Source: Solirubrobacter deserti
GTDB lineage: Bacteria; Actinomycetota; Thermoleophilia; Solirubrobacterales; Solirubrobacteraceae
Length of the DNA: 64,000 nucleotides
Direction: 5' to 3'
Assembly: GCF_027587175.1 (NCBI RefSeq)
Contig: NZ_JAPCID010000023.1
Span: forward strand, 1 to 64,000
Each line of letters begins with the position of its first letter. Within the stretch, counting starts at the first letter, position 1. Made by a program: the position numbers and the translations under genes. Below, in pieces: positions 2,697-26,534 of the stretch. Under the pieces are notes generated by a model. It saw nothing but the letters and a program-made list of their open reading frames with translations. It did not search any database and was not told the origin of the DNA.

Positions 2697-2851
2697 GGAC
2701 CGAACTCTTCCGGGTCGCACGGCGCGCGTCGTCGGCCCGGGAGACGATTGTGGGTGCGCGTCCGGATGACGTCAGGTCATCCATAAGGAGTACGCCGGGA
2801 TCGTCCGCGCTTACGAGGACATACGGGTATCCGCACGTCAGAATCCGGCCG

Positions 2852-9601: not shown

Positions 9602-9665
9602 TGAAAACGAGCTCCTTCGAAATGGACCGAAGTCGACAGGGATTCGAGAGAATACAGAACCACAC

Positions 9666-9681
9666 AAACCCGATCGGCTTT
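9666..9681. promoter_or_regulatory. Candidate operator AAACCCGATCGGCTTT between sbp and the nucleoside operon
   Basis: A 16-bp near-palindrome (one mismatched pair) with core CCGATCGG in the 128-bp divergent gap. It differs by one base (T for C) from the site at 26519-26534 before the methylthioribose operon. It lies about 49 bases upstream of the nucleoside-binding protein start and 65 bases upstream of sbp, so one bound protein could control both directions. The likely binder, by inference, is the Rrf2 regulator at 26546-27007. Confidence 0.5.
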
Positions 9682-9729
9682 TTACACGGCTACTCTCACG
9701 AGCCGGAGTTCGAACTCGGAGGGTCTGAA

Positions 9730-10755
9730 GTGCGAAAGCTCGCGTTGGTGGTCGTCGCGGCGTTGACGATCGCGGCCTGTGGCGGCGAAGAGGAATCGGG
9801 TGGCACCGCCGGTGGCGGCGGTGGCGAGAAGAAGACGGCGATCTACGTCTCGACGAACCCACTGGGCACGAATCAGTTCTTGAACCTGATCGCCGACGGC
9901 GCCAAGGCCGGCGGTGAGCAGTGCGGGGTGGAGGTCAAGGTCGTGCAGTCCAACGACCCGAACCAGCTCGCGACGAACCTGCGCGCCGCCGCGCAGGCCA
10001 AGCCCGATCTGATCATCGCCAACTCGTTCGACTCCGTGCAGACGATCGAGCAGCTGGCCAAGCAGAACGCCGACCAGAAGTGGGCACTCGTGGACGCCAC
10101 GATCGAGAACACGCCCAACCTGCGCGGGATCCTGTTCAAGGAGAACGAGGGCATGTACCTGATCGGCGCCGCTTATGCCCTTCTCGCGAAGGACGGCGCG
10201 GGCGACTTCCCGGCCTCCAAGTCGGTCGGGTTCGTCGGCGCGATCGACAACGCGCTCGTACGCCGCTGGTACGCGGGCATGGAGCAGGGCGTCAAGGACA
10301 CGGCGCCCGAGCTCGAGGTCCTGCAGGGCTGGGGCAACAGCTACACCGACCCGGCGACCAGCAAGGAGCTCGCGCTCAGCCAGGCCCAGAAGGGCGCCAA
10401 GTACATCGCCGCCGTCGCCGCCGCGGGCAACTCGGGCGTCTTCGAGGCCGCGGCCGAACGCGACTTCTACACCAGCGGCGTGGACGTCGACGAGCGCCCG
10501 AAGGACCCGGACCACATCATCCTGTCGATGGTCAAGCGCTCCGACCAGGCCGTCCAGCAGGCCGTCTGCGACGTCGGCAAGGACACCTTCAAGGGCGGCG
10601 ACGTGGCGCTCGGCGTCAAGGACAACGCGGTCGGCCCCGACTTCCTGACGCTGCCCGAGCTCGAGATCCCCTCGCGCCTGCCGCAGGACGTGCAGGACGA
10701 GCTGAAGGCGCTCAAGGACCGGATCGTCTCGGGCGAGATCACCGTCAAGCAGTGA
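9730..10755 (+). CDS. BMP/PnrA-family nucleoside-binding lipoprotein
   Basis: 341 residues from a GTG at 9730 with GGAGGG at 9718-9723. The signal peptide MRKLALVVVAALTIAACGG ends in a lipobox with Cys17, followed by a Gly-rich linker. The mature protein has the BMP domain (type I periplasmic fold) with NPLGTNQFLNLIADGAK and VGFVGAIDNALVRRWYAGM. Members bind purine nucleosides or simple sugars. It overlaps the ATPase gene by GTGA and heads a five-gene operon ending in a nucleoside hydrolase. Placed next to sulfur genes, 5'-methylthioadenosine is a plausible ligand; that is inference. Confidence 0.9.
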   Translation: MRKLALVVVAALTIAACGGEEESGGTAGGGGGEKKTAIYVSTNPLGTNQFLNLIADGAKAGGEQCGVEVKVVQSNDPNQLATNLRAAAQAKPDLIIANSFDSVQTIEQLAKQNADQKWALVDATIENTPNLRGILFKENEGMYLIGAAYALLAKDGAGDFPASKSVGFVGAIDNALVRRWYAGMEQGVKDTAPELEVLQGWGNSYTDPATSKELALSQAQKGAKYIAAVAAAGNSGVFEAAAERDFYTSGVDVDERPKDPDHIILSMVKRSDQAVQQAVCDVGKDTFKGGDVALGVKDNAVGPDFLTLPELEIPSRLPQDVQDELKALKDRIVSGEITVKQ

Positions 10756-12206
10756 TCGCCCTCGAGGGCATCGTCAAGCGCTTCGGCGCGCTCACCGCGC
10801 TCGACGGGGTCGACCTGACCGTCGAGCGCGGGACCGTCCACGCCGTCGTGGGCGAGAACGGCGCGGGCAAGACGACCCTCATGGGCGTGCTGGGCGGGAT
10901 CGTCGCCGCCGACGCGGGCACGGTGTCCCTGGACGGCGAGCCGGTGCGGATCGCGTCGGTGGAGGACGCGTACGCGCACGGCATCGGCATGGTCCACCAG
11001 CACTTCCGGCTGTTCCGGCGGCTGACCGTCGCCGAGAACGTCGTGATGGGGCGCGAGCCGCGCCGGCGCGGCGGCTACGACCATGCCGCCGCCGAGGCAC
11101 TGGTGGACGAGCTCGGGCGCGCGCACGGGCTGCGCGTGGACCCGCGCGCCCGCGTCGGCGAGCTGTCGGTCGGCGACCAGCAGCGCGTGGAGCTGCTGCG
11201 CGCGCTGCACCGCGCCGCGGACGTGCTGATCCTCGACGAGCCGACGGCCGTGCTCACCCCGCAGGAGGCCGAAGGGCTGTTCGGCGTGATGCGCGAGCTC
11301 GCCGGGCAGGGTCGGACCGTGCTGTTCATCAGCCACAAGCTGCGCGAGGTGCTGACGGTCTCCGACACCGTGACCGTGCTGCGGCGCGGAAGCGTGACCG
11401 GCGTGCGCCGCGCTTCCGAGACCGACGAGCGCGAGCTGGCGGGCCTGATGGTCGGGCGGGCGATCGAGTCGGCCTATCAGGCGCCGGACACGCCGGCGGG
11501 CGAGCCCGTGCTGCGCCTGGAGGCCCTGACGGCGCGCGGGCTCAAGCCGCTCGACCTGGAGGTGAGCGCGGGCGAGATCGTCGGCGTCGCGGGCGTGGCC
11601 GGCAACGGGCAGACCGAGCTCGCCGAGGCGATCGCGGGGCTGCGGCCGCGCGAGGGCGGGACGCTGACGATCGCCGGCCGCGCGCTGAGCGACGCGACCG
11701 TCGCGCAGCGGCGGGAGGCGGGCCTCGCCCACATTCCCGAGGACCGCTACGCGCGCGGCCTGGCCCGCGAGGCGACGATCGCCGAGAACCTGCTGATGGG
11801 CACGCACCGGCGGCGCTTCCGCCTGGACCGGCGCGCCATGAACGCGCGTGCCCGCGAGCTGGTGGAGGCGTTCGACGTGCGCGCCGGCGACGTCGGGGAC
11901 CGCGCCGCGACGCTGTCCGGCGGCAACGCCCAGAAGCTCGTGATCGCGCGCGAGCTGGCGGGCGAGCCCGCGGTCGTGCTCGCGTGCCAGCCGACGCGCG
12001 GCGTGGACATCGGCGCGGCGGAGTTCGTGCACGCGCAGCTGCGCGCCGCGCGCGACCGCGGCGCGGGCGTGCTGCTGATCAGCGCCGACCTCGACGAGCT
12101 GCTCGCGCTCGCCGACCGCATCGTCGTGCTCTACGAGGGCGCGCTGGTCGGCGAGTCGCGCGACGAGGCCGAGCTCGGCCTGCTGATGGCCGGTGCGCAT
12201 GCGTGA
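10752..12206 (+). CDS. Nucleoside-type ABC transporter, double ATP-binding protein
   Basis: 484 residues from a GTG that overlaps the previous stop. Two ABC modules are present. The first has Walker [10 protein letters not shown], an [15 protein letters not shown] signature and [11 protein letters not shown]. The second has a degenerate Walker A (GVAGNGQTE), [16 protein letters not shown] and a degenerate Walker B ([12 protein letters not shown]), as usual in the RbsA/MglA/YufO family. It energises uptake through the two permeases that follow. The Cys in place of the usual Asp-Glu region of the second module suggests only the first module hydrolyses ATP efficiently. Confidence 0.93.
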
Positions 12207-13233
12207 CCGCGGCTTCGCCGTCGGCGAGGCGCTGCTGGCGGTGGCGATCGCGCTCGCGGTCGGCGCGCTGTTCGTGCTGATCGCCGACGATTCGCCCGCG
12301 ACGGCCTACGAGGCGCTGTGGACGAGCTCGGTCGGCTCCACCAACGCGCTCGCGCAGTCGATGACGACCGCGATCCCGATCATCGTCGTCGGACTCGGGA
12401 TGGGGCTCGCGTTCCGGGTCGGGTTGTTCAACCTCGGCGGCGAAGGGCAGATGATCCTCGGCGCGCTGACGACCGCCGTGGTCGGCCATGCGCTCGCTTC
12501 GCTGCCGGGGGCGATCACGTTCGTGCTCGCGGTGGTGTCCGGCTGTCTGGCGGGCGCGGCGTGGGCGGTCCTGCCCGCGTTGTGGGAGGTGTTCCTACGC
12601 GTGCCGCTCGTGGTCACGACGCTGCTGCTCAACTACGTCGGCGCGCTGCTGGCGACCTACCTCGCGGCGTACCCGCTGCGCGACGAGAGCGGCGGCTCGA
12701 CGCTGGCGCAGACGGCCGAGATCCCGAGCGCGCTGCAGCTGCCGATCATCGTCCCCAACACGCCGCTGCACGCCGGGCTGTTCGCCGCGGTCCTGGCACC
12801 GCTGGGCGTGCTGTGGCTGCTGCAGCGGACCTCGCTCGGTTACGCCATGCGCATGACCGGCCTCAACCGCGACTTCGCCGAGACCGGCGGCGTGCCCATG
12901 AAGCGCACGATCGTGACCACGATGGCGCTGTCGGGAGCGCTGTGCGGGCTCGCGGGCGCGCTGCTGGTGATGGGGCAGACCTACCGCTACCTCGACGACT
13001 CGATCGTCTCGCCGCAGACCGCGTGGAGCGGCCTCGCGGCGTCGATGCTGGCCGGCTTCCATCCGCTGTTCACGTTCGTGTCCGGGTTCTTCCTCGCTGC
13101 CCTGCAGACTGGCGGCAGCGGCCTGCAGCTGGCGACGAACGTGCCGCTGCAGCTGGTCAACGTCATCCAGGCCGTGATCATCGCGATGGTCGCTGTGCGG
13201 CTGTGGCTCGGCCGGAGGGTGCTGCGGCGATGA
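12199..13233 (+). CDS. Nucleoside-type ABC transporter permease 1
   Basis: 344 residues from the ATG at 12199; a GTG two codons upstream is an alternative. About eight to ten membrane helices and the BPD_transp_2 motif FRVGLFNLGGEGQMILGA identify it as a YufP/NupP-type permease. It overlaps the ATPase gene by eight bases and the second permease by ATGA. Partner of the permease at 13230. Confidence 0.9.
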   Translation: MRDRGFAVGEALLAVAIALAVGALFVLIADDSPATAYEALWTSSVGSTNALAQSMTTAIPIIVVGLGMGLAFRVGLFNLGGEGQMILGALTTAVVGHALASLPGAITFVLAVVSGCLAGAAWAVLPALWEVFLRVPLVVTTLLLNYVGALLATYLAAYPLRDESGGSTLAQTAEIPSALQLPIIVPNTPLHAGLFAAVLAPLGVLWLLQRTSLGYAMRMTGLNRDFAETGGVPMKRTIVTTMALSGALCGLAGALLVMGQTYRYLDDSIVSPQTAWSGLAASMLAGFHPLFTFVSGFFLAALQTGGSGLQLATNVPLQLVNVIQAVIIAMVAVRLWLGRRVLRR

Positions 13234-14099
13234 GCGACTTCTTCTCGATCTTCGACTTCGCGCTGATCCTCTCCGCGCTGCGGCTGACGAGCCCGATCCT
13301 GCTCGCCGCGCTCGGCGGGCTGCTCACCGACCGCGCCGGGATCTTCAACATCGGCCTCGAGGGCCAGATGCTCGTCGGCGCCTTCCTCGGCTTCGCCGGC
13401 CTGTACTGGACGGGCAGCGCCTGGCTGGGCCTGCTGCTGGGCGTTGCCGGCGCGACCGCCCTGTCGCTGCTGTTCGGGCTGTGGGTGATCCGCCTCAAGG
13501 GCGATCCGATCATCGTCGGCCTGGCCGTGAACCTGTTCGCGATCGGCCTCACCGCCTATCTGACGCTCCCGGTGTTCGGCGTGCAGGGCTCCTACGACGA
13601 CCCCGCGCTCGAAGGCCTCCCGCGGCTGTTCGGCTTCTCGCCGCTCGTGTACCTCGGCGCGCTGCTCGTCCCGGCGCTGTGGTGGCTGCTGTTCAAGCAC
13701 CCGTTCGGCGTGCGGCTGCGCGCGGTCGGCGAGGACGCCGAGGCCGCCTCCGAGGCCGCGGTGCACCCCGACCGGATCAAGTTCCTGGCCTGCGGGCTGT
13801 GCGGCGTGCTGTGCGGGCTCGCGGGCGCCCAGCTCGCGCTCTCGCTCGTCACTCAGTGGGTGCAGGGCATGACCGCGGGCCGCGGCTTCATCGCCCTGGT
13901 GGCGATCATGCTCGCCCGCTCGCACCCCGTCGGCGCGGCCGCGGCGGCACTGCTGTTCGGCCTGGCGTACGCGATGGCCGTGCGCCTGCAGGGCATCGGC
14001 ATCCCGCCGCAGTTCGTGTCGATGCTGCCCTACGTCCTGACCATCGCCGTGCTCGTGCTGCTCGCGCGCCGGCTCCGTAACCGCCCGGTGACCACATGA
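13230..14099 (+). CDS. Nucleoside-type ABC transporter permease 2
   Basis: 289 residues, about eight to nine membrane helices, starting MSDFFSIFDFALILSALRL. The conserved DRAGIFNIGLEGQMLVGAF segment marks the YufQ/NupQ-type permease of BMP-dependent transporters. It shares ATGA overlaps with both neighbours. It forms the heteromeric channel with permease 1. Confidence 0.92.
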   Translation: MSDFFSIFDFALILSALRLTSPILLAALGGLLTDRAGIFNIGLEGQMLVGAFLGFAGLYWTGSAWLGLLLGVAGATALSLLFGLWVIRLKGDPIIVGLAVNLFAIGLTAYLTLPVFGVQGSYDDPALEGLPRLFGFSPLVYLGALLVPALWWLLFKHPFGVRLRAVGEDAEAASEAAVHPDRIKFLACGLCGVLCGLAGAQLALSLVTQWVQGMTAGRGFIALVAIMLARSHPVGAAAAALLFGLAYAMAVRLQGIGIPPQFVSMLPYVLTIAVLVLLARRLRNRPVTT

Positions 14100-15046
14100 G
14101 ACGAGTGATCCTGGACATGGACGTCGGCATCGACGACGCCATCGCCATCCTCTACCTCGCCGCCCGCGAGGACGCCGAGATCGTCGCGCTCGGTGCGGTG
14201 CACGGCAACTGCACGGCCCACGACGCGGCGCGCAACGCACTGATCGTGTTCGAGACGCTCGGGCTGGACGTGCCGGTGGCTCTCGGCGCCGTGAAGCCGC
14301 TCGAGCAGGAGCTGAGCGTCGCTTCGTTCGTGCACGGCGCGGACGGGATGGGCGACGCCGGCTTCCCCGACCCGAAGGGCGCGGTCACGGGTGAGCACGC
14401 CGCCGACCAGCTGATCCGGCTCTCGCTCGAACACCCGGGCGAGCTCGACCTGCTCGCGGTGGGTCCGTTGACGAACCTCGGCGTGGCGCTGCGGAAGGAC
14501 CCTGAGGTATTGGCGCGTCTGCGCTCGGTCGTGATCATGGGCGGCTCCGGCGCCTACCCGCCGGCCGGCACGCTGCGCGAGGTCGACGCCAACATCGACC
14601 ACGACGCCGCCGCGGCCGCACTCGTGTTCGCCGCACCCCGGAATGAGCTCGTCATGGTTGGCGTCAACGTGACGTCGCCCGCGATCCTCGACGAGGAGGC
14701 CGCCGCCGCGCTCGCCGCCTCCGACACGCCGGCGGCCCGGCTGGCCTCGGCGATCCTCCCGTTCTACCTGGGCTTCTACCAGCACAAATGGGGCCGCCGG
14801 GTGTGCTCGATGCACGACCCGCTTGCGGCGGGCATCCTCGTCGACCCGACCTACGCGACGGCCTGGCGCCAGGGTCCGGTCAACGTCGTCAGCGACGGCT
14901 TCATGGCGCGCGCCTGGCTGATGGAGCGCGAAGACGGCGGCCCGGTGTCGCTGCCCGTCACCGAGGCACCGCCGACGCGGGTCGTCGACAGTGCCGACTG
15001 GCAGCGCTTCGGCGACGAGCTGGTGACACGGCTCACACAGGCCTGA
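14096..15046 (+). CDS. Nucleoside hydrolase (IunH/RihA family)
   Basis: 316 residues. The N-terminal calcium-binding motif reads DMDVGIDDA (family DxDxGxDD), and the C-terminal catalytic His lies in CSMHDPLAAG. The loop DANIDHDAAAAA replaces the more usual EFN-type motif, and Val replaces the usual Pro in the first motif, so specificity may differ from inosine/uridine enzymes. It hydrolyses the N-glycosidic bond of imported nucleosides in the cytoplasm. It is coupled (ATGA overlap) to the transporter genes, so substrate is delivered by them. Given the neighbouring mtnK/mtnA, methylthioadenosine giving adenine and methylthioribose is a reasonable hypothesis. Confidence 0.9.
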   Translation: MRRVILDMDVGIDDAIAILYLAAREDAEIVALGAVHGNCTAHDAARNALIVFETLGLDVPVALGAVKPLEQELSVASFVHGADGMGDAGFPDPKGAVTGEHAADQLIRLSLEHPGELDLLAVGPLTNLGVALRKDPEVLARLRSVVIMGGSGAYPPAGTLREVDANIDHDAAAAALVFAAPRNELVMVGVNVTSPAILDEEAAAALAASDTPAARLASAILPFYLGFYQHKWGRRVCSMHDPLAAGILVDPTYATAWRQGPVNVVSDGFMARAWLMEREDGGPVSLPVTEAPPTRVVDSADWQRFGDELVTRLTQA

Positions 15047-15086
15047 GTCGCGTTCGACGGGTCGTATAACGGAATACGACACCCGG

Positions 15087-15123
15087 TCCTAATAACTCTA
15101 AATCCGATCCGGGATTAGGAGTT
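15087..15123 (+). promoter_or_regulatory. metN leader with alternative hairpins over the GGAG
   Basis: Two overlapping pairings are possible: TCCTAAT (15087-15093) with ATTAGGA (15114-15120), or AACTC (15094-15098) plus ATCC (15102-15105) with GGAT (15112-15115) plus GAGTT (15119-15123). Both bury the AGGAG at 15117-15121. The ATG of metN is 20 bases further on, farther than normal for this Shine-Dalgarno sequence. This could be an RNA switch, or simply the symmetry of a DNA operator. Confidence 0.35.
15099..15117. promoter_or_regulatory. Weak CCGATC-type operator candidate before metN
   Basis: TAAATCCGATCCGGGATTA is a partly symmetric 19-mer sharing AAA(C/T)C(C/T)GATC with the sites at 9666-9681 and 26519-26534. 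It lies 24-42 bases before the metN ATG. Symmetry is poorer than at the other two sites. Confidence 0.35.
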
Positions 15124-15140
15124 TCTATTGTGAGCCGCCG

Positions 15141-16046
15141 ATGCTTGAGATCAGCGGCTTGCGCAAGGTCTTCCCGAACGGTGTCGTCGCCCTGGACGGC
15201 GTCGATCTTTCCGTACCGGCGGGCGAGATCGTCGGCGTCATCGGGCGCAGCGGCACGGGCAAGAGCACGCTCATCCGCTGCGTGAACCGGCTCGAGGAGC
15301 CGACCGCCGGCACGATCACGCTCGACGGCGCGGACATCACGCGCATGGGTGGCGCCGAGCTGCGGGCGACGCGCCGGCGGATCGGGATGATCTTCCAGCA
15401 GTTCAACCTGCTCACCTCGCGGACAGCCGCCGAGAACGTCGCGTTGCCGCTGGAGATCGCGGGCGTGGGGCGCGCCGAGCGAGGCCGCCGCGCGCACGAG
15501 CTGCTCGAGCTCGTCGGCCTCGGCGACCGCGGCGGCTCGTACCCGTCGCAGCTGTCCGGCGGCCAGAAGCAGCGCGTCGGGATCGCCCGCGCGCTCGCGT
15601 CCGAGCCGTCGCTGCTGCTGTCGGACGAGGCCACGTCCGCGCTGGACGCCGAGACCACGACCTCCGTGCTGGACCTGCTGCGGCGCATCAACGCCGAGCT
15701 CGGCTTGACGGTCCTGCTGATCACGCACGAGATGGACGTCGTGCGCGCGGCGTGCGACCGGGTCGCGCTGCTCGACGCAGGGCGGGTCGTGGAGGAAGGT
15801 CCGCTCGGCGAGGTCGTCGCGCGGCCCGGCTCCCGGCTCGCCTCCGGCCTGCTGCCGTCGCTCGGCCGGGTCGAGGTCGGCGGGCACGAGCACGCCGAGG
15901 AGGTCGTCCTGTTCGAGGACGCCGAGGAGCGGCTCGCGGCGGCGATCGCCGACGGCGCCCGGATCGAGGCCCGCTCCACCGAGCGGATCGGCGAGCGGCG
16001 CGTCACCCGCGCGCTGGTCGTGACCCCGAAGGAGGTCGCGGTATGA
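15141..16046 (+). CDS. metN: Methionine ABC transporter ATP-binding protein MetN
   Basis: 301 residues starting MLEISGLRKVFPNGVVALDG. Walker A GRSGTGKST, signature LSGGQKQRVGIARAL and Walker B LLLSDEATSALDAETT are clear; DEATSALD is typical of MetN. The C-terminal tail (about 60 residues after ITHEMDVVRAACDRV) is a shortened version of the regulatory region with no convincing NIL/ACT domain, so allosteric inhibition by methionine may be reduced. It overlaps metI by ATGA. It drives uptake of methionine and related thioethers. Confidence 0.92.
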   Translation: MLEISGLRKVFPNGVVALDGVDLSVPAGEIVGVIGRSGTGKSTLIRCVNRLEEPTAGTITLDGADITRMGGAELRATRRRIGMIFQQFNLLTSRTAAENVALPLEIAGVGRAERGRRAHELLELVGLGDRGGSYPSQLSGGQKQRVGIARALASEPSLLLSDEATSALDAETTTSVLDLLRRINAELGLTVLLITHEMDVVRAACDRVALLDAGRVVEEGPLGEVVARPGSRLASGLLPSLGRVEVGGHEHAEEVVLFEDAEERLAAAIADGARIEARSTERIGERRVTRALVVTPKEVAV

Positions 16047-16705
16047 ACGACGGCTGGAGCGAATGGGCCCCGCTGCTGTGGACGGCCACGCGCGAGACGC
16101 TCGTGATGGTCGGCGTGGCGATGCTCGTCACGATCCCGTTCGGGCTGCTGTTGGGCGTGCTGCTGCTGCTCACCGATCGCGGCGGGCAACTGGAGTCGCG
16201 CGTCGCCAATCGGGTCCTCGGCGCGATCGTCAACGTCGGGCGCTCGGTCCCCTTCATCATCCTGCTGGTCGCCGTGATCCCGCTCACGCGGGCGCTCGTC
16301 GGCACCACCATCGGCACCACGGCGGCGATCGTGCCGCTCGCACTGGCGACGATCCCGTTCTTCGCGAGGATCGTCGAGACGGCGCTGCGTGAGGTGCCGA
16401 ACGGCCTCGTCGAGGCCGCGCTGGCCTCGGGCGCGCGGCGCCGCGAGGTCGTGTCCAAGGTCCTGGTGCCGGAGGCGCTCCCCTCACTCGTCTCGGGCGT
16501 GACCATCACCACGATCGGCGTCATCGGCTACTCCGCCATGGCCGGCGCCGTCGGTGGCGGAGGCCTCGGCGACGTGGCCATCCGCTACGGCTACCAGCGC
16601 TACGAGACGGAGGTCACGATCGCGACCGTCGTCGTGCTCGTGCTGCTGGTGCAGCTTCTGCAGTTCGCCGGCGACCGCGTGTCCCGGCGCCTCTCTCACT
16701 CCTGA
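16043..16705 (+). CDS. metI: Methionine ABC transporter permease MetI
   Basis: 220 residues starting MNDGWSEWAPLLWTATRETL, five membrane helices. The EAA loop is LVEAALASGARRREVVSKVLVPEALPSLV and the motif YSAMAGAVGGGGLGDVAIRYGYQR is diagnostic for MetI. The ATG overlaps the metN stop; metQ starts 11 bases later. Homodimeric channel for methionine uptake. Confidence 0.95.
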   Translation: MNDGWSEWAPLLWTATRETLVMVGVAMLVTIPFGLLLGVLLLLTDRGGQLESRVANRVLGAIVNVGRSVPFIILLVAVIPLTRALVGTTIGTTAAIVPLALATIPFFARIVETALREVPNGLVEAALASGARRREVVSKVLVPEALPSLVSGVTITTIGVIGYSAMAGAVGGGGLGDVAIRYGYQRYETEVTIATVVVLVLLVQLLQFAGDRVSRRLSHS

Positions 16706-16716
16706 AAGGTCCCCCC

Positions 16717-17538
16717 ATGCGACGCATCGCTCTTGCCCTGGCCGCCGCCACCCTCGCCCTGGGTGCGGCCGCCTGCGGCGGCGAGGAGGAGACCGGCAGC
16801 GCCGCCGCGGCCGACAAGCCGCTCGTCGTCGGCGCCTCCCCCGTCCCCCACGCCGAGATCCTCAACTTCATCAAGGACAACCTCGCCGAGAAGAACGGCC
16901 TCGAGCTCGAGGTGAAGGAGTTCACGGACTACGTGCTCCCGAACACCGCGCTCGTCGACGGCCAGCTGGACGCCAACTACTTCCAGACGCCCGCCTACCT
17001 GGCCGACCAGGAGAAGGCACGCAACTTCAAGGCGACATCGATCGTCGGCGTGCATATCGAGCCGCTCGGCCTGTACTCGCGCGAGATCGAGGACGTCGCG
17101 TCGGTGCCGAACGGCGCGCAGGTCGCGATCCCGAACGACGCCACCAACGAGGCCCGCGCGCTGCGCCTGCTCGCCGCGAACAACCTGATCACGCTCAAGC
17201 CGGAAGCCACCGAGACGGCGACGATCCGCGACATCCAGGACAACCCGAAGAAGCTCGAGTTCGCCGAGGTCGAGGCCGCCCAGACGCCGCGTTCGCTCGA
17301 CGACGCCGACCTCGCCGTGATCAACGGCAACTACGCGCTCGAAGCCGACCTCACCCCGAGCGAGGACGCCCTCGCGCTCGAGCAGGCGCAGAACAACCCG
17401 AACGCCAACCTCCTCGTCACGCTGCCGGAGGAGCGCAACGATCCGCGCGTGAAGAAGCTCGCGCAGTTGCTCACCTCGCCCGAGGTCAAGCAGTTCATCG
17501 ACCAGCAGTACAAGGGCGCGGTGCTCCCCGCCTTCTAG
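16717..17538 (+). CDS. metQ: Methionine-binding lipoprotein MetQ
   Basis: 273 residues. Lipoprotein signal with lipobox Cys20 (LGAAACGG), then the NlpA/MetQ fold beginning KPLVVGASPVPHAEILNF. Typical family segments are LDANYFQTPAYL and VAIPNDATNEARALRLL. It captures methionine outside the membrane for MetNI. A GGTCC-rich spacer of 11 bases separates it from metI, and a cupin gene starts four bases after its stop. Confidence 0.95.
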   Translation: MRRIALALAAATLALGAAACGGEEETGSAAAADKPLVVGASPVPHAEILNFIKDNLAEKNGLELEVKEFTDYVLPNTALVDGQLDANYFQTPAYLADQEKARNFKATSIVGVHIEPLGLYSREIEDVASVPNGAQVAIPNDATNEARALRLLAANNLITLKPEATETATIRDIQDNPKKLEFAEVEAAQTPRSLDDADLAVINGNYALEADLTPSEDALALEQAQNNPNANLLVTLPEERNDPRVKKLAQLLTSPEVKQFIDQQYKGAVLPAF

Positions 17539-17542
17539 CCTG

Positions 17543-18007
17543 ATGACCGTGAGACGTGCCGCGTTCGACCCCACCGCCTTCCAATGGGCCGGCGTCACCG
17601 CCCGCGCCTACAAGGACGAGCCCGGCAGCGCCCGGGGCATGGCCTGGCAGGGCCTCTCGCGTCACACGCTGGTGCGGTCCGAGGAGGCGGGCGTGACGTT
17701 CGAAGTGCGCTACTTCGAGATCGCGCCCGGTGGGTTCTCGAGCCTGGAGAAGCACGAGCACGTCCACGTCGTCTTCACCGCCCGCGGGCGGGGCCAGGCG
17801 CTGATCGGCGACCAGGTGGTGGACCTCGACCACCTCGACCTGGTCGAGGTCCCGCCGTGGACGCCGCACCGCTGGATCAACGCGGGCGACGAGCCGTTCG
17901 GCTTCATCTGCACCGTCGAGGGCACGCGCGACAAGCCGCAGCCCGTCTCCGACGAGGAGTGGGAAGCGCTCCTCGCCGACCCGCGCACGGCGCCCTTCGC
18001 ACACTAG
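17543..18007 (+). CDS. Cupin-domain protein co-transcribed with metNIQ
   Basis: 154 residues starting MTVRRAAFDPTAFQWAGV. A single cupin barrel: motif 1 around KHEHVHVVFTARGRG supplies two or three His, motif 2 around PPWTPHRWINAG another. The metal is probably Fe, Mn or Zn. The start is four bases after the metQ stop, so it belongs to the met operon. Function unknown. In other bacteria a cupin cleaves methanethiol from a methylthio-sugar phosphate, but that needs a RuBisCO-like enzyme not found here; alternatives are a thiol dioxygenase-like or isomerase role. Confidence 0.75.
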   Translation: MTVRRAAFDPTAFQWAGVTARAYKDEPGSARGMAWQGLSRHTLVRSEEAGVTFEVRYFEIAPGGFSSLEKHEHVHVVFTARGRGQALIGDQVVDLDHLDLVEVPPWTPHRWINAGDEPFGFICTVEGTRDKPQPVSDEEWEALLADPRTAPFAH

Positions 18008-18017
18008 GCTGCCGCCC

Positions 18018-18775
18018 GTGCGGCGGCTCGTCCTCCTTCTCGCGCTCGTCCTCGCCGCGTGCGGTGGCGGCGAGCCGGGCGACGAGGAGGTCCTCCGCGA
18101 AGTCGAGCGCAGCTACGCGCAGGAGACACCGCCGCTGCCGGGGGACGCGGCCACCGAGGCGCCGGTCGATCAGCGGTCGGTCGAGGCGTTCGTGCGCGAC
18201 TACCAGCGGCTGGCTTCTTCGCTGACGAGCCCGCCGCGGGCGCCGCACGGCGGATCGAGACCGCCTACGAGCGCGAGTGGGAGGAGCCGGCCAAGGTCGC
18301 GACGCGCTACGACGAGCTCGAGCTGCTCGCGTACGACCGTGAACGAGTGTGGTTCTCCGACATCGAGCGCGACGTCCTCGAGGGCAACGACGTCTACGTG
18401 AGCGCGTTCGCGGAATGGGCGCGGATCTCGCGCGGCGCGTTCGAGCCGCGCAACGTGCGCGAGCGCTGGCGCGGCGAACGGGCGACGATCAGCTTCGAGC
18501 TCGACGGCACCGCGCACTCGGTCCGCGCCGCTCCGCAGGGCGACTTCCTCGACCTCTGCGTGCTCGACGGCATCAACCGGCTGATCGACGGCCGGCGCTT
18601 CGAGGTCCACCGCGCCGACGGGGCGCTCGGCCAGGTCGCGTTCGTCGTCGCGCTCACGGCGCGCGAGAAGCGCGCGCTCGAGCGGCGCGACTGGGCGTTC
18701 GCCACGCCCGCCCAGCTGCGTCAGACGTTCGGCTACGGCCAGACCACCGAGGGCGGCGCCCCGGCCCCCTGCTAG
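18018..18775 (+). pseudogene. Lipoprotein gene with a frameshift
   Basis: A GTG at 18018 opens a lipoprotein (MRRLVLLLALVLAACGGGE, lipobox Cys15) that reads sensibly to about residue 66 (VEAFVRDYQRLA). The sense then moves to another frame at about 18213, continuing FFADEPAAGAARRIETAYER to a stop at 18775. Adding one base near 18213 would restore a single protein of about 250 residues. The downstream part is charged and soluble with two or three strands; I do not recognise the family. Either a true inactivating indel or a sequencing error. Its stop overlaps the end of the convergent dehydrogenase by four bases. Confidence 0.65.
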
Positions 18776-19773
18776 AAGCGCACGCTGTACTTGGCGGGCT
18801 GCGGGTCGTGCAGGCGGCCGGCGAGCGCGTCGGGCAGCTGGTCGAGGGTGATCTCCGGGCCCACCAGGTCGGCCCACGGGTACTCGCCCGCGGCCAGCAC
18901 TTCCAGCGCCCGCGCGAGGTAGCGGGGCGCGTGGTGGTAAGTGCCCAGCAGCGTGACCTCCTCGTAGTGCACGCGCGCGGTGGGGACGGTGAACGTCGTG
19001 CCGCGCGCGCAGCCGCCGAACAGGTTCACCGTGCCGCCGGGCGCGGCCATCGCAACGGCGAGCTCCCACGCCTCGGGGCGCCCGACGGCCTCCAGCACGA
19101 GGTCGGCGTCGCCGCCCTGCTCGATGTCCTGCGGCCCGCGCGTGGCGATCACGGTCTTGGCGGCGCCGAAGCGCGTGGCCAGCTCCAGCCGTTCCGGGTG
19201 CGGGTCGAGCACCGTCGGCCTGGCGCCCGCGCTCGCCGCCAGCGCGCACAGCATCAGGCCGAGCGAGCCGCCGCCGAGGATCGTGACCCGCTCGGGCACC
19301 TCGACGACGTCCAGCGCGTGGACCGCGCAGGCCAGCGGCTCGGCGATCGGCGCCAGCGCGAGCGGCACGCCGTCCGGGATCGGGTGCAGGTTCTTCGCGA
19401 CCAGCCGCGCCGGCAGCAGCACCTTCTCCGCGAACCCGCCGAGCACGTACAGCAGGTCCTCGCACAGCGACTCGCGTCCGCGCCGGCACTGGCGGCACTC
19501 GCCGCACGGGGCGGAGTTGCCGCAGAAGACGACGTCGCCGACCTGCACCGTGTCGACGCCTTCGCCGACGGCCTCGATCGTGCCCGCGAACTCGTGGCCG
19601 AGCCGCGCCGGGAACGGGCCCAGCGACGGATGCCCGCGCAGCAGCGACTTGACGTCGGTGTGGCAGGACGCCGCCGCGCCGACTTGCAGCACCGCCTCGC
19701 CCGGACCCGCGACGGGATCGGCGACCTCCTCGACGCGCAGGTCGCCCGGCGCATGGACCAGCGCGGCCCTCAT
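18772..19773 (-). CDS. Zinc-dependent alcohol/polyol dehydrogenase (last gene of mtn operon)
   Basis: 333 residues of the medium-chain dehydrogenase family. Catalytic zinc ligands: Cys in SCHTD and His-Glu in RLGHEFAG. Structural zinc: CGECRQCRRGRESLC. NAD(P)-binding Gly motif ILGGGSLGLM. All key residues are present, so it should be active. It is the seventh gene of the operon starting at 26488 and overlaps the second dehydrogenase by four bases. Closest in style to sorbitol/threonine dehydrogenases. Position suggests it works on a methylthio-sugar phosphate or on a product such as methylthio-acetaldehyde; the sequence cannot decide this. Confidence 0.85.
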   Translation of the reverse strand: MRAALVHAPGDLRVEEVADPVAGPGEAVLQVGAAASCHTDVKSLLRGHPSLGPFPARLGHEFAGTIEAVGEGVDTVQVGDVVFCGNSAPCGECRQCRRGRESLCEDLLYVLGGFAEKVLLPARLVAKNLHPIPDGVPLALAPIAEPLACAVHALDVVEVPERVTILGGGSLGLMLCALAASAGARPTVLDPHPERLELATRFGAAKTVIATRGPQDIEQGGDADLVLEAVGRPEAWELAVAMAAPGGTVNLFGGCARGTTFTVPTARVHYEEVTLLGTYHHAPRYLARALEVLAAGEYPWADLVGPEITLDQLPDALAGRLHDPQPAKYSVRF

Positions 19774-20753
19774 GCGGCGGTCACGACGACCTTGATGCCC
19801 TCGCGGCTGCGCGCCGCGGCCAGCGCCGCCTCGGTCTCCTCCAGCGGGAACCGGTGCGTGATCAGCTTGTCGGCGGAGATCTTGCCGTCGGCGATCAGCT
19901 GCAGCGCGGCCCGCGTGTCGCGCGGCCCGGCCGAGTAGGACGCCTGGATCTCCAGCTCGCGGAAGAAGAGGTCGTCGACGCCGAAGTCACGCCGCTCCCC
20001 AGGGCCGCTGGGCGCGAACAGCTGGATGATCCCGCCGCGGTCAGCGCTCGCCACCGCCAGCTCCCACGCGGCCGCGGCGCCCGTCGCCAGCATGACGACC
20101 GTGGGCGAGCCGACCGCCCCGTGCACCGGCTCCACGCCGTGCGCGCCCAACTCGGTGGCCAGCGCGCGCCGGTCCTCGCGCGGCTCGGCCACCGTCACCT
20201 CCGCGCCACGCGCGAGCGCCGCCTGGGCGATCAGCAGACCCATCTGCCCGCCGCCGACCACGAGCAGCCGGGTGTCCGAGTCGACCCGCGCTCGGTCCAG
20301 CCCGCGCACGCAGCAGGCGAGCGGCTCGATCAGCGTCGCCGCCTCGTCTGAGACATGGTCCGGCAGCGGCAGCAGATCGAGGGACGCGTTCAGCGCCGGC
20401 ACGAGGATCAGCTCGCTGAACCCGCCGGGCTCGATCCGCGTCGCCTTGAACGTGTCGCACAGCGTCTCGTGCCCGCGGCGGCAGAACTCGCACTCGCCGC
20501 ACGGCACGTGGTGGTGCACGAACACGCGCGTGCCCGGCTGCGGCAGCTCCTCGCCCCGCGCGTCGACCACCACGCCGACGGGCTCGTGGCCGAGCACGAG
20601 CGGCGCGCGCGGGTCCTGGTACCACTGCATGAGGTCTGAGCCGCAGATGCCGCACGCGCGCATCGCGACGAGCACCTCGCCCGGTCCGGGCCGCGGCACC
20701 TCGCGCTCCTCGAGCCGCACCTCGCCCTGCCCGTAGTAGACGGCCGCCCTCAC
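19770..20753 (-). CDS. Zinc-dependent alcohol/polyol dehydrogenase (next to mtnA)
   Basis: 327 residues from a GTG overlapping the mtnA stop. Catalytic zinc: CGICGSD and VLGHEPVG. Structural zinc: CGECEFCRRGHETLC. Nucleotide-binding motif VVGGGQMGLL. The C-terminal DDLFFRELEIQASYSAGPRD resembles sorbitol and L-threonine dehydrogenases. It is a paralogue of the gene at 18772 but clearly diverged, suggesting two successive oxidoreductase steps. Tight coupling to mtnA makes a methylthioribulose-derived substrate the leading idea. Confidence 0.87.
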   Translation of the reverse strand: MRAAVYYGQGEVRLEEREVPRPGPGEVLVAMRACGICGSDLMQWYQDPRAPLVLGHEPVGVVVDARGEELPQPGTRVFVHHHVPCGECEFCRRGHETLCDTFKATRIEPGGFSELILVPALNASLDLLPLPDHVSDEAATLIEPLACCVRGLDRARVDSDTRLLVVGGGQMGLLIAQAALARGAEVTVAEPREDRRALATELGAHGVEPVHGAVGSPTVVMLATGAAAAWELAVASADRGGIIQLFAPSGPGERRDFGVDDLFFRELEIQASYSAGPRDTRAALQLIADGKISADKLITHRFPLEETEAALAAARSREGIKVVVTAA

Positions 20754-21706
20754 GCCACGACCCCCGCGATCGCCGGGCCGAACGGCGCGCGGAGCACGCC
20801 CGCGTCGGTGATCAGGCCGGTGATCAATGAGGACGGCGTCACGTCGAAGGCGGGATTCCACACGCGCGTGCTCTCTTGCAACCCGGCGATCGAGCGGACC
20901 TCGGACCCGTCGCGCTCCTCGATCTCGATCACGGCGCCGTGCGGCGTCGCGGGATCCAGGGTGGAGCGCGGCGCGGCAACGTAGAACGGCACCTCGTGGT
21001 GGCGCGCCGCGATCGCGAGCGCGTACGTCCCGATCTTGTTCGCGGTGTCGCCGTTGGCCGCGATCCGGTCGGCGCCGACGATCACGGCGTCGATCTGCCC
21101 GCTCGCCAGCAGCGCCGGCGCGGCGCCGTCCGGGAGCACGGTCACGGGGATGCCGGCGTCGTCGAGCTCCCACGCGGTCAGCCGCGCGCCCTGCAGCAGC
21201 GGGCGCGTCTCGCACGCGAACACCTCCACGGGCTCGCCCGCCTGCTGCTTGGCGTAGACGACGCCAAGCGCCGTTCCCCAGCCCGCGGTCGCGAGCCGGC
21301 CCGTGTTGCAGACCGTGAGGATCCGCGAGGCGTCCGACAACTCCGCACGCCCGAACTCGCCGATGGCTTCGCAGGCGGCGATGTCCTCGTGCAGGATCGC
21401 GAGCGCCTCGGCCTCGCGGTCCGGCGCCGCGAGCACGCGCTGCACCGCCCAGCGCAGGTTGACCGCCGTCGGCCGCGCGGACGCGATCCGCTCGATCGCC
21501 GCGTCGTCGTCCCCCGCCAGGAGCACGCCGAGCGCGCCCGTCACGCCGATCGCCGGCGCCCCGCGCACGGCCAGCCGCTGGATCGCCTCCACCACCTCGT
21601 CTGCCGTCTGGAGCCGGATCACCCGCTCCTGCGCGGGCAACAACGTCTGGTCGATGATCTCGATCGCGTCCCCGGTCCAGCCCACCGCGGTCCGCACAGC
21701 CATCAT
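20750..21706 (-). CDS. mtnA: S-methyl-5-thioribose-1-phosphate isomerase MtnA
   Basis: 318 residues starting MMAVRTAVGWTGDAIEIIDQ. Family marks: RGAPAIGVTGALGV, the catalytic Cys in RILTVCNTGRLATAGWGTAL, ACETRPLLQGARLTAWEL and the catalytic Asp in VIVGADRIAANGDTANKIGT. It converts methylthioribose-1-phosphate to methylthioribulose-1-phosphate in methionine salvage. Length is normal (family about 320-370). It overlaps mtnK by ATGA and the next dehydrogenase by GTGA. Annotation as eIF2B-like is ruled out by the full set of MtnA active-site motifs. Confidence 0.95.
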   Translation of the reverse strand: MMAVRTAVGWTGDAIEIIDQTLLPAQERVIRLQTADEVVEAIQRLAVRGAPAIGVTGALGVLLAGDDDAAIERIASARPTAVNLRWAVQRVLAAPDREAEALAILHEDIAACEAIGEFGRAELSDASRILTVCNTGRLATAGWGTALGVVYAKQQAGEPVEVFACETRPLLQGARLTAWELDDAGIPVTVLPDGAAPALLASGQIDAVIVGADRIAANGDTANKIGTYALAIAARHHEVPFYVAAPRSTLDPATPHGAVIEIEERDGSEVRSIAGLQESTRVWNPAFDVTPSSLITGLITDAGVLRAPFGPAIAGVVA

Positions 21707-22926
21707 CCTCGTGCCACCTCCTCGCGCGCGATGGCGCTCACTTCCCCGGCCGTCTCCGGCCGATCCAGCAGGAGCCGCTTGACCGTCTCGATCACGGCGC
21801 GCCCGGCGACCGCGCGCGGCTCGACATCCAACGTCTCGAGGTCCGGCACGTGCGCGAGCCCGACGATCCGGCGCGCGGCCTCGGTGGCCGCGAACGCCGC
21901 CGCGTCGCGCTGCGTCTGCGCCAGCCAGCGCTCCAGGAACGGCTCGTTGAACACGCGCGGGTCGACGACCCCCGGCCACAGCGCGCGGAACTCCGCCTCG
22001 AACGCGTCCCACAGCTGCTCGAACAGCGTCGCCGCCCAGGCGCCGTGCTCCTCGCGGCCGAGCACCGCGTCGCGCGCCATCGTGACGATGAAATTCGACC
22101 ACGGCAGCGCGAGGTCGAACGCGATCGGCCCGTAGAACGCGAACTCGGAGTCGAAGGCGCGCGTGGACCCGTCCTTGACCATCACGGAGCCGGTGTGGAG
22201 GTCGCCGTGCAGCAGCGCCTCGGCGCGGGTCATGAACGCGTACTTGAGCTCGCCCGCGGCGGCCTTGAGCTCGGGCGTCTGCAACGAGGCGGCCGCGTCC
22301 GCGAGCTCGTCCTGGAACCAGTTGCGGTCGGCGCCGCTGAACGGCTCGGTGAGCACGAGATCCTCGGTGATCTCGCACAGGTCCGGGTTGATCGCAGCGG
22401 CCGTGAGCCACTTGAGCTCCTTGGCCTCGACCCCGAACAGCGACGTGTGGAACGCGACCCGCGCGACGTAGCGGCCGACGTCGCCCGCCGCGCTGTCGTG
22501 ACGCTCACCGTCGGTCAGCGCGCCGCGCCACACGCGGTGGTCGGTCAGGTCCTCCATCGCGAGGATGTAGCGCTCGGCGTCGAAGCCGTAGAAGGCGGGC
22601 AGGTACTCGGCCGCGAAGCGCCCGTGCACCGCGTAGGCGCGCGCCTCGGCGACGGCGCGCTCGGGCGTGAACGGCCACGACGGACCGACCAGGCGCACGT
22701 ACGGCAGCGCCTGCTTGAGCACGATCCCGCGGCCGCCGCCGTCCTGGCAGACGAAGACGAGGTTGAGGTTGCCGTCACCGACCTCGGTGACGTCGAGGCT
22801 CGACGTGTCGACGCGGTCCGCCAGCTCGGGGCGCGCGTCGATGTACGCCGCGACCTTCTCCGGCTCGAGCAGCTCGTACGTAGTCGACCGGTGGGGCTGC
22901 CGCCCCCCCGAGACCCCCCCGCTCAC
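21703..22926 (-). CDS. mtnK: S-methyl-5-thioribose kinase MtnK
   Basis: 407 residues from a GTG at 22926 that overlaps the permease stop. APH/choline-kinase fold: DGNLNLVFVC then VLKQALPYVR for ATP binding, and the catalytic loop LLHGDLHTGSVMV with FDSEFAFYGPIAFD. These are diagnostic of MtnK. It phosphorylates methylthioribose to methylthioribose-1-phosphate. The first ten codons contain two G7 tracts, and no other start codon is available before the conserved TTYELLEPEKV. Following a sugar-type importer and preceding mtnA, it indicates uptake of external methylthioribose. Confidence 0.95.
   Translation of the reverse strand: MSGGVSGGRQPHRSTTYELLEPEKVAAYIDARPELADRVDTSSLDVTEVGDGNLNLVFVCQDGGGRGIVLKQALPYVRLVGPSWPFTPERAVAEARAYAVHGRFAAEYLPAFYGFDAERYILAMEDLTDHRVWRGALTDGERHDSAAGDVGRYVARVAFHTSLFGVEAKELKWLTAAAINPDLCEITEDLVLTEPFSGADRNWFQDELADAAASLQTPELKAAAGELKYAFMTRAEALLHGDLHTGSVMVKDGSTRAFDSEFAFYGPIAFDLALPWSNFIVTMARDAVLGREEHGAWAATLFEQLWDAFEAEFRALWPGVVDPRVFNEPFLERWLAQTQRDAAAFAATEAARRIVGLAHVPDLETLDVEPRAVAGRAVIETVKRLLLDRPETAGEVSAIAREEVARG
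22903..22920. repeat. Two seven-base homopolymer tracts at the mtnK start
   Basis: C7 at 22903-22909 and C7 at 22914-22920 on the plus strand, i.e. two G7 runs in codons 3-9 of mtnK. Loss or gain of one base in either would shift the whole kinase out of frame. The tracts are short for classical phase variation. Confidence 0.6.
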
Positions 22927-23945
22927 CGCAGCTTCCTGACGCCGAAGGTGAGCAGCAGCGCGACCATGAGGACGACCCCCTTGACGAAGTCCTGCGTGTA
23001 GTACGGGAAGTTCTTGATCGTGAGCCCGTTGAGCATGATCCCGAGGAACACTGCCCCGATCGTGGTGCCGAGGATGTTCGGGCGGTTGACCGCGAGGACG
23101 GCATACCCGACAAGGGCCGCGGCGACCGCGTCGAGCAGGAACGGGCTGCCCGCGCCGACGTCGCCCTCGCCGATCCGCGCGGCGAGGATGATGCCGCCGA
23201 GCGAGGCCAGCACGCCGCTGATGATGTAGGCGATCATCCGCACCCGGTCGACCCGGATGCCCGCCAGCCGTGCGGCCTCGAGGTTGCCGCCGACGGCGTA
23301 GAACTGCCGGCCCCAGCGCGTGCGCTCCATCACGACCCAGAGCACGATCGCCACGACGGCGAAGATGATGATCGGGAACGGGATCTCGCCGAACAGGCGC
23401 CCGCGGCCCAGGTACAGGAAGGCGTCGGTGAAGACGCCGGTGTACTCGGTGCCGTCCAGGACGAGGCCGGTCGAGATCGACTGGCCCTCGGACGGCAGCA
23501 GTTGCACGCCCTGGAGCACGAACAGCATGCCGAGCGTGGCCAGCAGGTCGGGCACTCGCAGCCGCACGATCAGCGCGCCGTTGAGCGCGCCGATCAGCAG
23601 GCCGCCGAGCAGCGCGACGGGCACGACGGCGATCGTCGGCCACGCGAACATCACCAGGCAGATCGCGCACAGCATCACGGTGAAGCCGGCGTTGGCGCCG
23701 ATCGAGAGGTCGAAGCCGCCGACCACCATCGAGATCGTCACGCCCAGCCCGATGATCCCGACGATCGAGATGGACTGGAGGATGGAAACGATGTTGTTGA
23801 ACGAGCGGAACGAAGGTTCTGTCACCGCGAAATAGACCGTCACACCGGCAAACAAGGCCAGCAGCCCATAACGCAAGATGAGTCGCTCGACGCCGGGGGC
23901 GGCGCCGACCTCGATCGGTCGCGCGGGCTGCTCTTGGGTGCTCAT
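22923..23945 (-). CDS. Sugar-type (RbsC-like) ABC permease, putative methylthioribose importer
   Basis: 340 residues, about ten membrane helices, starting MSTQEQPARPIEVGAAPGVE. The RbsC/MglC hallmarks GGFDLSIGANAGF and AVGGNLEAARLAGIRVDR are present. Between the ATPase (overlap ATGA at 23942) and mtnK (overlap GTGA at 22923). Forms the homodimeric channel of the operon's importer. Substrate assignment to methylthioribose rests on the adjacent kinase and isomerase. Confidence 0.92.
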   Translation of the reverse strand: MSTQEQPARPIEVGAAPGVERLILRYGLLALFAGVTVYFAVTEPSFRSFNNIVSILQSISIVGIIGLGVTISMVVGGFDLSIGANAGFTVMLCAICLVMFAWPTIAVVPVALLGGLLIGALNGALIVRLRVPDLLATLGMLFVLQGVQLLPSEGQSISTGLVLDGTEYTGVFTDAFLYLGRGRLFGEIPFPIIIFAVVAIVLWVVMERTRWGRQFYAVGGNLEAARLAGIRVDRVRMIAYIISGVLASLGGIILAARIGEGDVGAGSPFLLDAVAAALVGYAVLAVNRPNILGTTIGAVFLGIMLNGLTIKNFPYYTQDFVKGVVLMVALLLTFGVRKLR

Positions 23946-25417
23946 GCGTTCATCGCCAACGTCAGGGCCTCACGGCTCGCGTCGGCCGCGAGCACGTCCT
24001 GCACGACCGAGCCGTGCGAGAGGACCACGATACGATCGGCCACCTCGAGCACCTCGTCGACGTCCGCGCTGGCGACGACGATCGCCGCGCCCGCCGACAG
24101 CTCGCGCACCTTGGCCGCGATGTCGCGGCGGGCGCCGAGGTCGACACCGCGGAACGGCTCGTCGAGGGCCAGCACCCGCGCGGGCTTGAGCAGCCAGCGG
24201 CCGACGACGACCTTCTGCTGGTTGCCGCCCGACAGCGACTCGATCGGCGCCTCCGGGCCGGCCGTACGCACGCGCAGGTCGCGGATGAGGTCGATCACGC
24301 GGCGGCGCTCGTTGCCGGCCTGCGTGAAGAAGCGCCGGACGAGCGCGAGCGTCGCGTTGCCGCGTACGCTCCAGCCCGGGATCAGCGCCTGCGCGGCGCG
24401 GTCTTCGGGCACGAGGTGCACCCCGTGGCCGATCGCCTCGGCGGGGTGCTGCGGGCGGATCGGCCGGCCGTCGAGCGTGATCGTGCCCTCGGGCAGCGGG
24501 CTCAGGCCGAACAGCGCGCCCAGCAGCTCGGACTTGCCGGCGCCGATCAGCCCGGTGAGGCCGAGCACCTCGCCCTCTTTGAGGTCCAGGTCGAACGGCT
24601 CGCTGTGCGCGAACAGCCGCGCACCCTCGATCCGGACGATCGCCTCGCCGGCGACGTGCCCGGAGGGCCGCTGGATCTCCTCGGCCAGCTCGCCGAGCAT
24701 CGCGTTCACGACGTCCTCGCGCGTGAAGGGCTTGGCGAACGTCGCCACCAGCTGGCCGTCGCGCATCACCGCGACCCGGTCGGCCAGCGCGTCGACCTCG
24801 CCGAGCCGGTGCGAGACGTACAGGATCGCGACGCCCTGCTCACGGAGCTTGCGGACGACGTCGAACAGCCGCTCGGCCTCGGCGGTGGAGAGCGCGGACG
24901 TCGGCTCGTCGAGGATCAGCAGGCGCGGTTGCTGGGCGAGCGAGCGCGCGACCGCGATCAGCTGGCGTTCGGAGACGCCCAGCCGTGTGACGTCGTCGAG
25001 TAGCGTGGCGTCGCTCAGGTGCAGGCCGAGGCCCTCGGCCACCGCGCGGGCGCGCGGCAGCAGTCGGCGCGGCGAGGCCCACGCGCCGTCCTCCCCGCTC
25101 GCGAGCCGGTCCAGCGTGAGGTTCTCGGCGGTGCTCAGTCCGGGGATCGTCCACTCCGATGCGTGTTGGTGCACGGTCTCCACACCCGCGCGGCGGGCGT
25201 CGAGCGGCGAGTGGAAGCGGGTGGGCTCACCGTCGACGAGCACTTCGCCCGTGTCGGGCGCGAGCGCGCCCGACAGGATCTTGTTCAGCGTCGACTTGCC
25301 CGCCCCGTTGGCGCCGACGACGGCGAGCACCTCGCCCGCCGCCGGCTCCAGGCTCACCCCGCGCAGCGCCTGCGTGGAGCCGAACGACTTCGCGACTTCA
25401 CGCAGCGCAACGGTCAT
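23942..25417 (-). CDS. Sugar-type (RbsA-like) ABC double ATPase, putative methylthioribose importer
   Basis: 491 residues with two ABC modules. Module 1: Walker A GANGAGKST, signature LGVSERQLIAVARSLA, Walker B LLILDEPTSALS. Module 2: GLIGAGKSE, LSGGNQQKVVVGRWLL and VLALDEPFRGVDLG. This is the RbsA/MglA/XylG arrangement. It starts one base before the binding-protein stop's neighbour and overlaps the permease by four bases. Energises uptake through the 22923 permease. Confidence 0.94.
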   Translation of the reverse strand: MTVALREVAKSFGSTQALRGVSLEPAAGEVLAVVGANGAGKSTLNKILSGALAPDTGEVLVDGEPTRFHSPLDARRAGVETVHQHASEWTIPGLSTAENLTLDRLASGEDGAWASPRRLLPRARAVAEGLGLHLSDATLLDDVTRLGVSERQLIAVARSLAQQPRLLILDEPTSALSTAEAERLFDVVRKLREQGVAILYVSHRLGEVDALADRVAVMRDGQLVATFAKPFTREDVVNAMLGELAEEIQRPSGHVAGEAIVRIEGARLFAHSEPFDLDLKEGEVLGLTGLIGAGKSELLGALFGLSPLPEGTITLDGRPIRPQHPAEAIGHGVHLVPEDRAAQALIPGWSVRGNATLALVRRFFTQAGNERRRVIDLIRDLRVRTAGPEAPIESLSGGNQQKVVVGRWLLKPARVLALDEPFRGVDLGARRDIAAKVRELSAGAAIVVASADVDEVLEVADRIVVLSHGSVVQDVLAADASREALTLAMNA

Positions 25418-26518: not shown

Positions 26519-26534
26519 AAAGCCGATCAGGTTT
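26519..26534. promoter_or_regulatory. Candidate operator AAACCTGATCGGCTTT before the mtn operon
   Basis: Read on the minus strand, this 16-mer differs at one position from AAACCCGATCGGCTTT at 9666-9681. It is in the 57-bp gap between the Rrf2 regulator gene and the binding-protein gene, close enough to the start to block transcription. A TAGACT further upstream could be a -10 element but I could not place a convincing -35. Confidence 0.5.

Follow-up and report, generated by a model that had tools for sequence, protein, structure and literature searches.

A nucleoside importer and hydrolase operon beside methylthioribose genes in Solirubrobacter deserti, with 5'-methylthioadenosine as candidate substrate

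Introduction

Which nucleoside is taken up and cleaved by an operon that joins a nucleoside importer to a nucleoside hydrolase (NH) with an altered substrate loop? The question is raised by positions 9730–15046 of the window, the whole stretch of 64,000 nt of Solirubrobacter deserti DNA (contig NZ_JAPCID010000023.1) that was analysed; the host genome has 7.09 Mb. The initial annotation proposed 5'-methylthioadenosine (MTA). From the gene content, protein families, gene arrangement and residue changes that we observe, we infer the substrate, its uptake, the reaction and a link to a neighbouring methylthioribose (MTR) operon: A 5'-modified purine nucleoside, most likely MTA, would be imported and hydrolysed, and would feed the mtn genes. 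We hold this reading tentatively, with its chances a little short of even.

In the proposed route, the BMP/PnrA-type ABC importer would take up the nucleoside, and NH would split MTA into adenine and MTR. In the neighbouring operon, MTR would then be phosphorylated by MtnK and isomerised by MtnA. Sulfur recovery would probably end at a cupin, with release of the methylthio group. A literature search combining MTA, nucleoside hydrolase and methylthioribose kinase found nothing. With MTA and nucleoside hydrolase only, no entry among the matches listed was evident, by its title and the start of its abstract, as an MTA hydrolase of the inosine-uridine nucleoside hydrolase type.

Results

The operon and its hydrolase

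Five plus strand genes, with consecutive overlaps of 4–14 bp, form one tight operon coding for a BMP/PnrA-type ABC importer and NH (Table 1). The PF02608 binding protein is accompanied by its ABC partners, and the combination of binding protein, double ATPase and two PF02653 permeases is that of the BMP/PnrA nucleoside importers. The difference is that here the importer genes are joined by overlap to the NH gene, inside a sulfur island. NH is most likely the last gene of its operon, since the metN leader which follows it is kept in a species without NH. Three species have a conserved GTATAACGG...CGACACCCGGTCCTAATA stretch in this leader (15047–15140), which has no Rfam match.

Table 1. Position of the operon, the gap upstream and the genes of the neighbouring methionine and methylthioribose island in the window
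Feature	Position	Strand	Evidence or remark
Gap common to sulfate importer and bmpA-NH operon	9602..9729	.	128 bp, from Sbp start (9601) to bmpA start (9730)
Palindrome AAACCCGATCGGCTTT in this gap	9666-9681		
bmpA, BMP/PnrA-family substrate-binding lipoprotein	9730..10755	+	PF02608, 123 bits; PDB relatives Lbp 7x0r, TmpC/PnrA 2fqw
Double ABC ATPase of BMP importer	10752..12206	+	Nearest NCBIfam 'putative B6 ABC' ATPase, below cut-off
BMP importer permease 1	12193..13233	+	PF02653
BMP importer permease 2	13230..14099	+	PF02653
NH, nucleoside hydrolase with altered putative 5'-OH loop (G158, D164, A165)	14096..15046	+	PF01156, 231 bits; alignment
MetN, MetI, MetQ (methionine importer), own leader	15141..17538	+	Family matches
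Cupin, candidate 1-methylthioxylulose-5-P methylsulfurylase	17543..18007	+	Best PDB relative Rru_A2000, 3jzv, E 7e-28
adh1, zinc dehydrogenase	18772..19773	-	PF08240, PF00107; 4ej6
adh2, zinc dehydrogenase, ketose-reductase-like	19770..20753	-	4ej6, 1e3j ketose reductase, sorbitol dehydrogenases
mtnA, MTR-1-P isomerase	20750..21706	-	TIGR00512, 374 bits, cut-off 279
mtnK, MTR kinase	21703..22926	-	TIGR01767, 368 bits, cut-off 275; true start maybe up to 14 codons downstream
RbsC-like permease and RbsA-like ATPase, candidate MTR importer	22923..25417	-	Homologues adjoin mtnK in other genomes
RbsB-like binding protein, candidate MTR importer	25418..26488	-	Best PDB relative 4ry8, E 3.7e-70

NH belongs to the inosine-uridine nucleoside hydrolases (PF01156, cut-off 34 bits), which include the Crithidia enzyme, RihA/B/C and URH1p, and shares their metal and catalytic motifs. 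This is its sole family match: PF01048, the domain of the MtnN nucleosidase, is not matched, and no NCBIfam equivalog cut-off is reached (the best is UriH, 152 bits against 450). The reaction we propose is the one carried out by the MTA/S-adenosylhomocysteine nucleosidase MtnN, from MTA to adenine and MTR, in an unrelated family; this genome has no MtnN above cut-off.

In the alignment, D9, D13, D14, N38, H80, N166, H240 and D241 of NH occupy the conserved catalytic and metal positions. Thus DxDxGxDD, N39, N168 and the HD pair (Crithidia numbering), the positions for the metal (Ca) and for the 2'- and 3'-OH, are all kept, in agreement with the catalytic frame described in the initial annotation. 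Y224 and Y228 of NH correspond to Y225 and Y229 in the alignment, so that both alpha8 tyrosines are present, as in the purine-competent members of the family. These tyrosines are needed for purine nucleosides (PMC8910321). A structure model of NH from its single sequence has a low pLDDT (37).

The substrate loop

The loop around NIDHD is where NH departs from its relatives. G158, D164 and A165 take the place of N160, E166 and F167 of the Crithidia enzyme, N168 is kept, and there are two extra loop residues. We treat N160 and E166 as putative contacts of the 5'-OH. The initial annotation saw signs of a different pocket in this loop and in the sequence DMDVGIDDA. Both are present and the loop is informative, but the DMDVG positions also vary in relatives (DCDPG, DTDTG, DVDTG, DLDLG), and we have discarded them as evidence for a new pocket.

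The alignment comprises NH, the Crithidia enzyme and 67 relatives; the ortholog from a sister species (G157) was set aside for the counts, which leaves 66. Being mainly top matches to NH, they do not sample the family at random; they are restricted to matches with a retrievable locus (many gave none), without second copies per species. The metal and catalytic positions are conserved among them: D10, D15 and N39 in 66, D14, H82, N168 and D242 in 65, H241 in 62. N160 is kept in 63 of the 66 and E166 in 61, while NH has Gly and Asp. The F167A change was rejected as specific to NH, as 17 of the 66 have Ala at this position.

Neither N160 nor E166 is retained in NH, in the G157 ortholog, or in L037, L042 (Mycolicibacterium plasmid) and L045 (Rhizobium plasmid). 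The tree places NH and its G157 ortholog as sister to L042 (100/98), followed by two Streptomyces plasmid enzymes with E166D only; this branching suggests that E166 changed before N160. The loop is unchanged between this species and G157, despite an overall NH identity of 86%. The L045 enzyme, from Rhizobium lusitanum plasmid p_3, has Val and Asp at the N160 and E166 positions. Its BMP-ABC-NH set and the adjoining genes for a ribokinase-like kinase, RpiB and a class II aldolase make up an uncharacterised cluster of nucleoside catabolism.

Loss of the putative 5'-OH contacts makes sense if the substrate has no 5'-OH. According to PMC11241417, Asn165, Glu173 and Asn175 of URH1p are among the residues with substrate-binding homologues, and Phe174 is placed against the base. 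In PMC12648331, 19 of 19 NH ligand complexes have the side chain hydrogen-bonded, and the Crithidia enzyme does not act on 5'-deoxyinosine. A T. vivax NH can cleave 5'-fluoro-5'-deoxyadenosine (PMC7408626), so the fold tolerates a 5'-substituent.

The methionine and methylthioribose island

Close by, within 12 kb, are the genes mtnK and mtnA, MetNIQ, a methylsulfurylase-like cupin and a candidate MTR importer. The mtn operon, with MTR kinase and MTR-1-P isomerase, is 6.7 kb from NH. It lies on the opposite strand and has seven genes: an RbsB/A/C-type importer, mtnK, mtnA and two zinc dehydrogenases. In the five stretches of rhizobial plasmids that were read, as in an actinobacterial genome (G403), importer homologues adjoin mtnK. 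The closest solved relative of the binding protein, 4ry8, is presumably an MTR-bound protein.

The cupin shares His and DKPQ motifs with Rru_A2000 of Rhodospirillum rubrum, which we take to be a 1-methylthioxylulose-5-P methylsulfurylase, yet a relative with 42% identity sits in a pxp cluster. A pxp cluster with a cupin relative is found on a Thiodictyon plasmid, whereas on a Terrarubrum plasmid a cupin relative adjoins a gene resembling those for RuBisCO-like proteins (RLP). In R. rubrum, an RLP makes 1-methylthioxylulose-5-P, which the cupin would need. The RLP family PF00016 is absent from this genome and from all five genomes of the genus with mtnK; its single match among seven genus genomes is in one without mtnK (G302). 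A cupin-type enzyme with a methylsulfurylase role is described in PMC5893883 and PMC6302742.

The island has mtnA in common with the MTA-isoprenoid shunt of R. rubrum, and a cupin that resembles Rru_A2000. It differs in having MtnK and NH where the shunt has only MtnP, in lacking an RLP and in its two extra dehydrogenases. adh1 and adh2 are 34% identical, and the nearest solved relatives of adh2 include a ketose reductase and sorbitol dehydrogenases. The pair could shift the carbonyl by reduction and oxidation, and the presence of cupin and dehydrogenases without RLP suggests a possible RLP-free variant of salvage. A complete scheme would run from BMP-type import and hydrolysis by an enzyme of the inosine-uridine nucleoside hydrolase fold, NH being the first MTA hydrolase of this kind, through MtnK and MtnA to 5-methylthioribulose-1-P. 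adh1 and adh2 would then replace the 1,3-isomerase activity of the RLP by way of a methylthiopentitol phosphate, and the cupin would yield the methylthio group and deoxyxylulose-5-P. As a whole we consider this scheme doubtful. The only Aldolase_II match of the genome was rejected as a downstream aldolase; from our reading of the sequence, it adjoins a rhamnose-isomerase-like open reading frame (ORF).

The sulfate importer and possible regulatory elements

The initial annotation also relied on a promoter gap common to the operon and a sulfate transporter. In the window this is correct: The gap exists, and CysA, CysW, CysT and Sbp family matches identify a real sulfate importer, which runs the opposite way. 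The shared gap is not conserved, however: In G157, sbp and bmpA are separated by a metalloprotease-like gene. This gene (L038, 2736-4577, in G157; L060+L061, 29806-31647, in G300, another genome of the genus; 76% identical) has the same place in both genomes, with the sulfate importer on one side and metN or bmpA on the other, and is absent in the window.

Similar CCNGATCGGCTTT elements are found at 9666-9681, in the sulfate/bmpA gap, and at 26519-26531 (-), in the leader of the mtn operon. They are a possible shared operator. MCYSATCGGSTTT, with at most one mismatch, has five matches in the window against 0.46 expected, and none of 100 shuffles reaches five, a count which overstates significance because the pattern was picked after the leaders had been seen. 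Two of the five are both strands of one palindrome in the gap, and one is in the mtn leader. No riboswitch or other Rfam family matches the window at gathering score; between 5500 and 27500 there are just two matches, with E 2.7 and 4.6, which we take as chance. Elsewhere in the window, a single frame of 877 amino acids (2750-5383) contains two stretches of HisKA_3 and seems to be a fusion of, or a read-through between, two histidine kinases.

Distribution

NH orthologs are found in three of the seven genus genomes, which represent two species: G000 and G299, of the same species, and G157. mtnK is present in five of the seven, including all three with NH. G157 keeps the whole gene order as far as it was read. 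G300 keeps the cys genes, metNIQ, cupin, dehydrogenases, mtnA, mtnK and importer, and lacks exactly bmpA-ABC-NH: The BMP-NH module is therefore an optional insert beside an older mtn operon. An identical NH is found in Solirubrobacter sp. CPCC 204708, the sole match of a scan of genome contigs with two short patterns, which were probably too specific.

An NH-like match at 1e-20 is found in 76 of the 299 genomes of the class; outside the genus, none exceeds 42% identity. The closest relatives outside the genus among 396 genomes of the phylum (G600, G549 and G403, 42–45% identity) keep N160 and E166. Only two of these 396 genomes contain mtnK, this one and G403. The latter has a second actinobacterial mtnK-mtnA-importer cluster (L065, contig C73), on a contig other than that of its NH, with two ORFs after it, one aldolase/dehydrogenase-like and one LsrF-like as judged from sequence. 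Rhizobial clusters share mtnK, mtnA and the importer genes (35–52% identity). mtnK is matched by 103 plasmid records; in the five stretches read from these, there is neither NH nor BMP importer, and RLP, transketolase or aldolase/SDR genes are found nearby instead.

Discussion

The case for MTA is partly supported: The changes at N160 and E166, the mtn island, the candidate MTR-binding protein and the cupin all speak for it, as does the presence of MetNIQ. The initial annotation cited none of these, and its own arguments were weak, so its substrate stands on other grounds, with ordinary purine or other 5'-modified nucleosides as alternatives. Apart from the interrupted gap, several results weigh against MTA. 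G300 has the mtn island without the module and G301 has mtnK without NH, although the stretch read in the latter spans cupin to importer only. One shared ancestral placement explains both species with NH, so their co-location counts as a single evolutionary event. L042 and L045, with both residues changed, have no mtn genes alongside in the stretches read. All NHs characterised so far are described as strict for unmodified ribose in PMC8910321, and PMC12648331 reports that the 5'-OH contributes up to 5.4 kcal/mol in the T. vivax enzyme and aids catalysis. Finally, one of the three PF01048 matches in this genome is an MTAP-like protein, which remains below its cut-off (158 against 275 bits); the others are a purine nucleoside phosphorylase above cut-off and a weak fragment. 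Intracellular MTA may be handled by phosphorolysis, with the NH route serving imported MTA.

Uptake and hydrolysis of an ordinary purine ribonucleoside, for salvage of base, ribose or nitrogen, beside sulfur genes by chance, is unlikely, yet it deserves serious attention. Both purine-activating tyrosines are kept, and BMP-ABC and NH modules occur in other settings, in Palleronia, in the Rhizobium cluster with RpiB, kinase and aldolase, and in G403. There the enzyme adjoins the same importer type, molybdopterin dehydrogenase subunits and two amidohydrolases, a setting which we read as purine catabolism and which also counts against MTA. The mtn operon works without NH in sister species, and MtnK would not depend on NH, since the importer of its own operon could supply MTR. 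On the other hand, N160 and E166 are replaced in NH and kept in G403, G600 and G549, and the module lies within a methionine and MTR island. Intact residues go with a purine catabolism setting and altered ones with an mtn setting, which is one comparison, not a statistic. Besides NH, the genome already codes for two further PF01156 enzymes, both with canonical loops, and for the purine nucleoside phosphorylase.

The residue changes point to a lost 5'-OH contact, not to sulfur as such. Another 5'-modified nucleoside (5'-deoxyadenosine, methylthioinosine or S-adenosylhomocysteine) would also fit them, with MtnK and MtnA handling a 5-deoxyribose-type sugar; in E. coli, the dihydroxyacetone phosphate shunt deals with MTA as well as with 5'-deoxyadenosine (PMC12632272). 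The sulfur-specific neighbours (sulfate and methionine importers, methylsulfurylase-like cupin) make this improbable. We consider it very improbable that NH is no longer an efficient catalyst, or has an unrelated riboside as its substrate, with a loop change that reflects relaxed constraint. Two contact residues are lost, and we know of no characterised enzyme with the N160/E166 double change, but the loop is identical in two species whose enzymes have otherwise diverged, and no metal or catalytic position has changed.

If MTA is the substrate, the loss of two contact residues would have opened a fold so far described as strict for unmodified ribose to a 5'-modified substrate, and NH would join MtnN and MtnP as a third type of MTA-cleaving enzyme. 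Solirubrobacter would scavenge MTA directly from soil, and the MTR kinase pathway would be workable without MtnN. The dehydrogenase pair beside mtnA is a candidate replacement for the RuBisCO-like isomerase.

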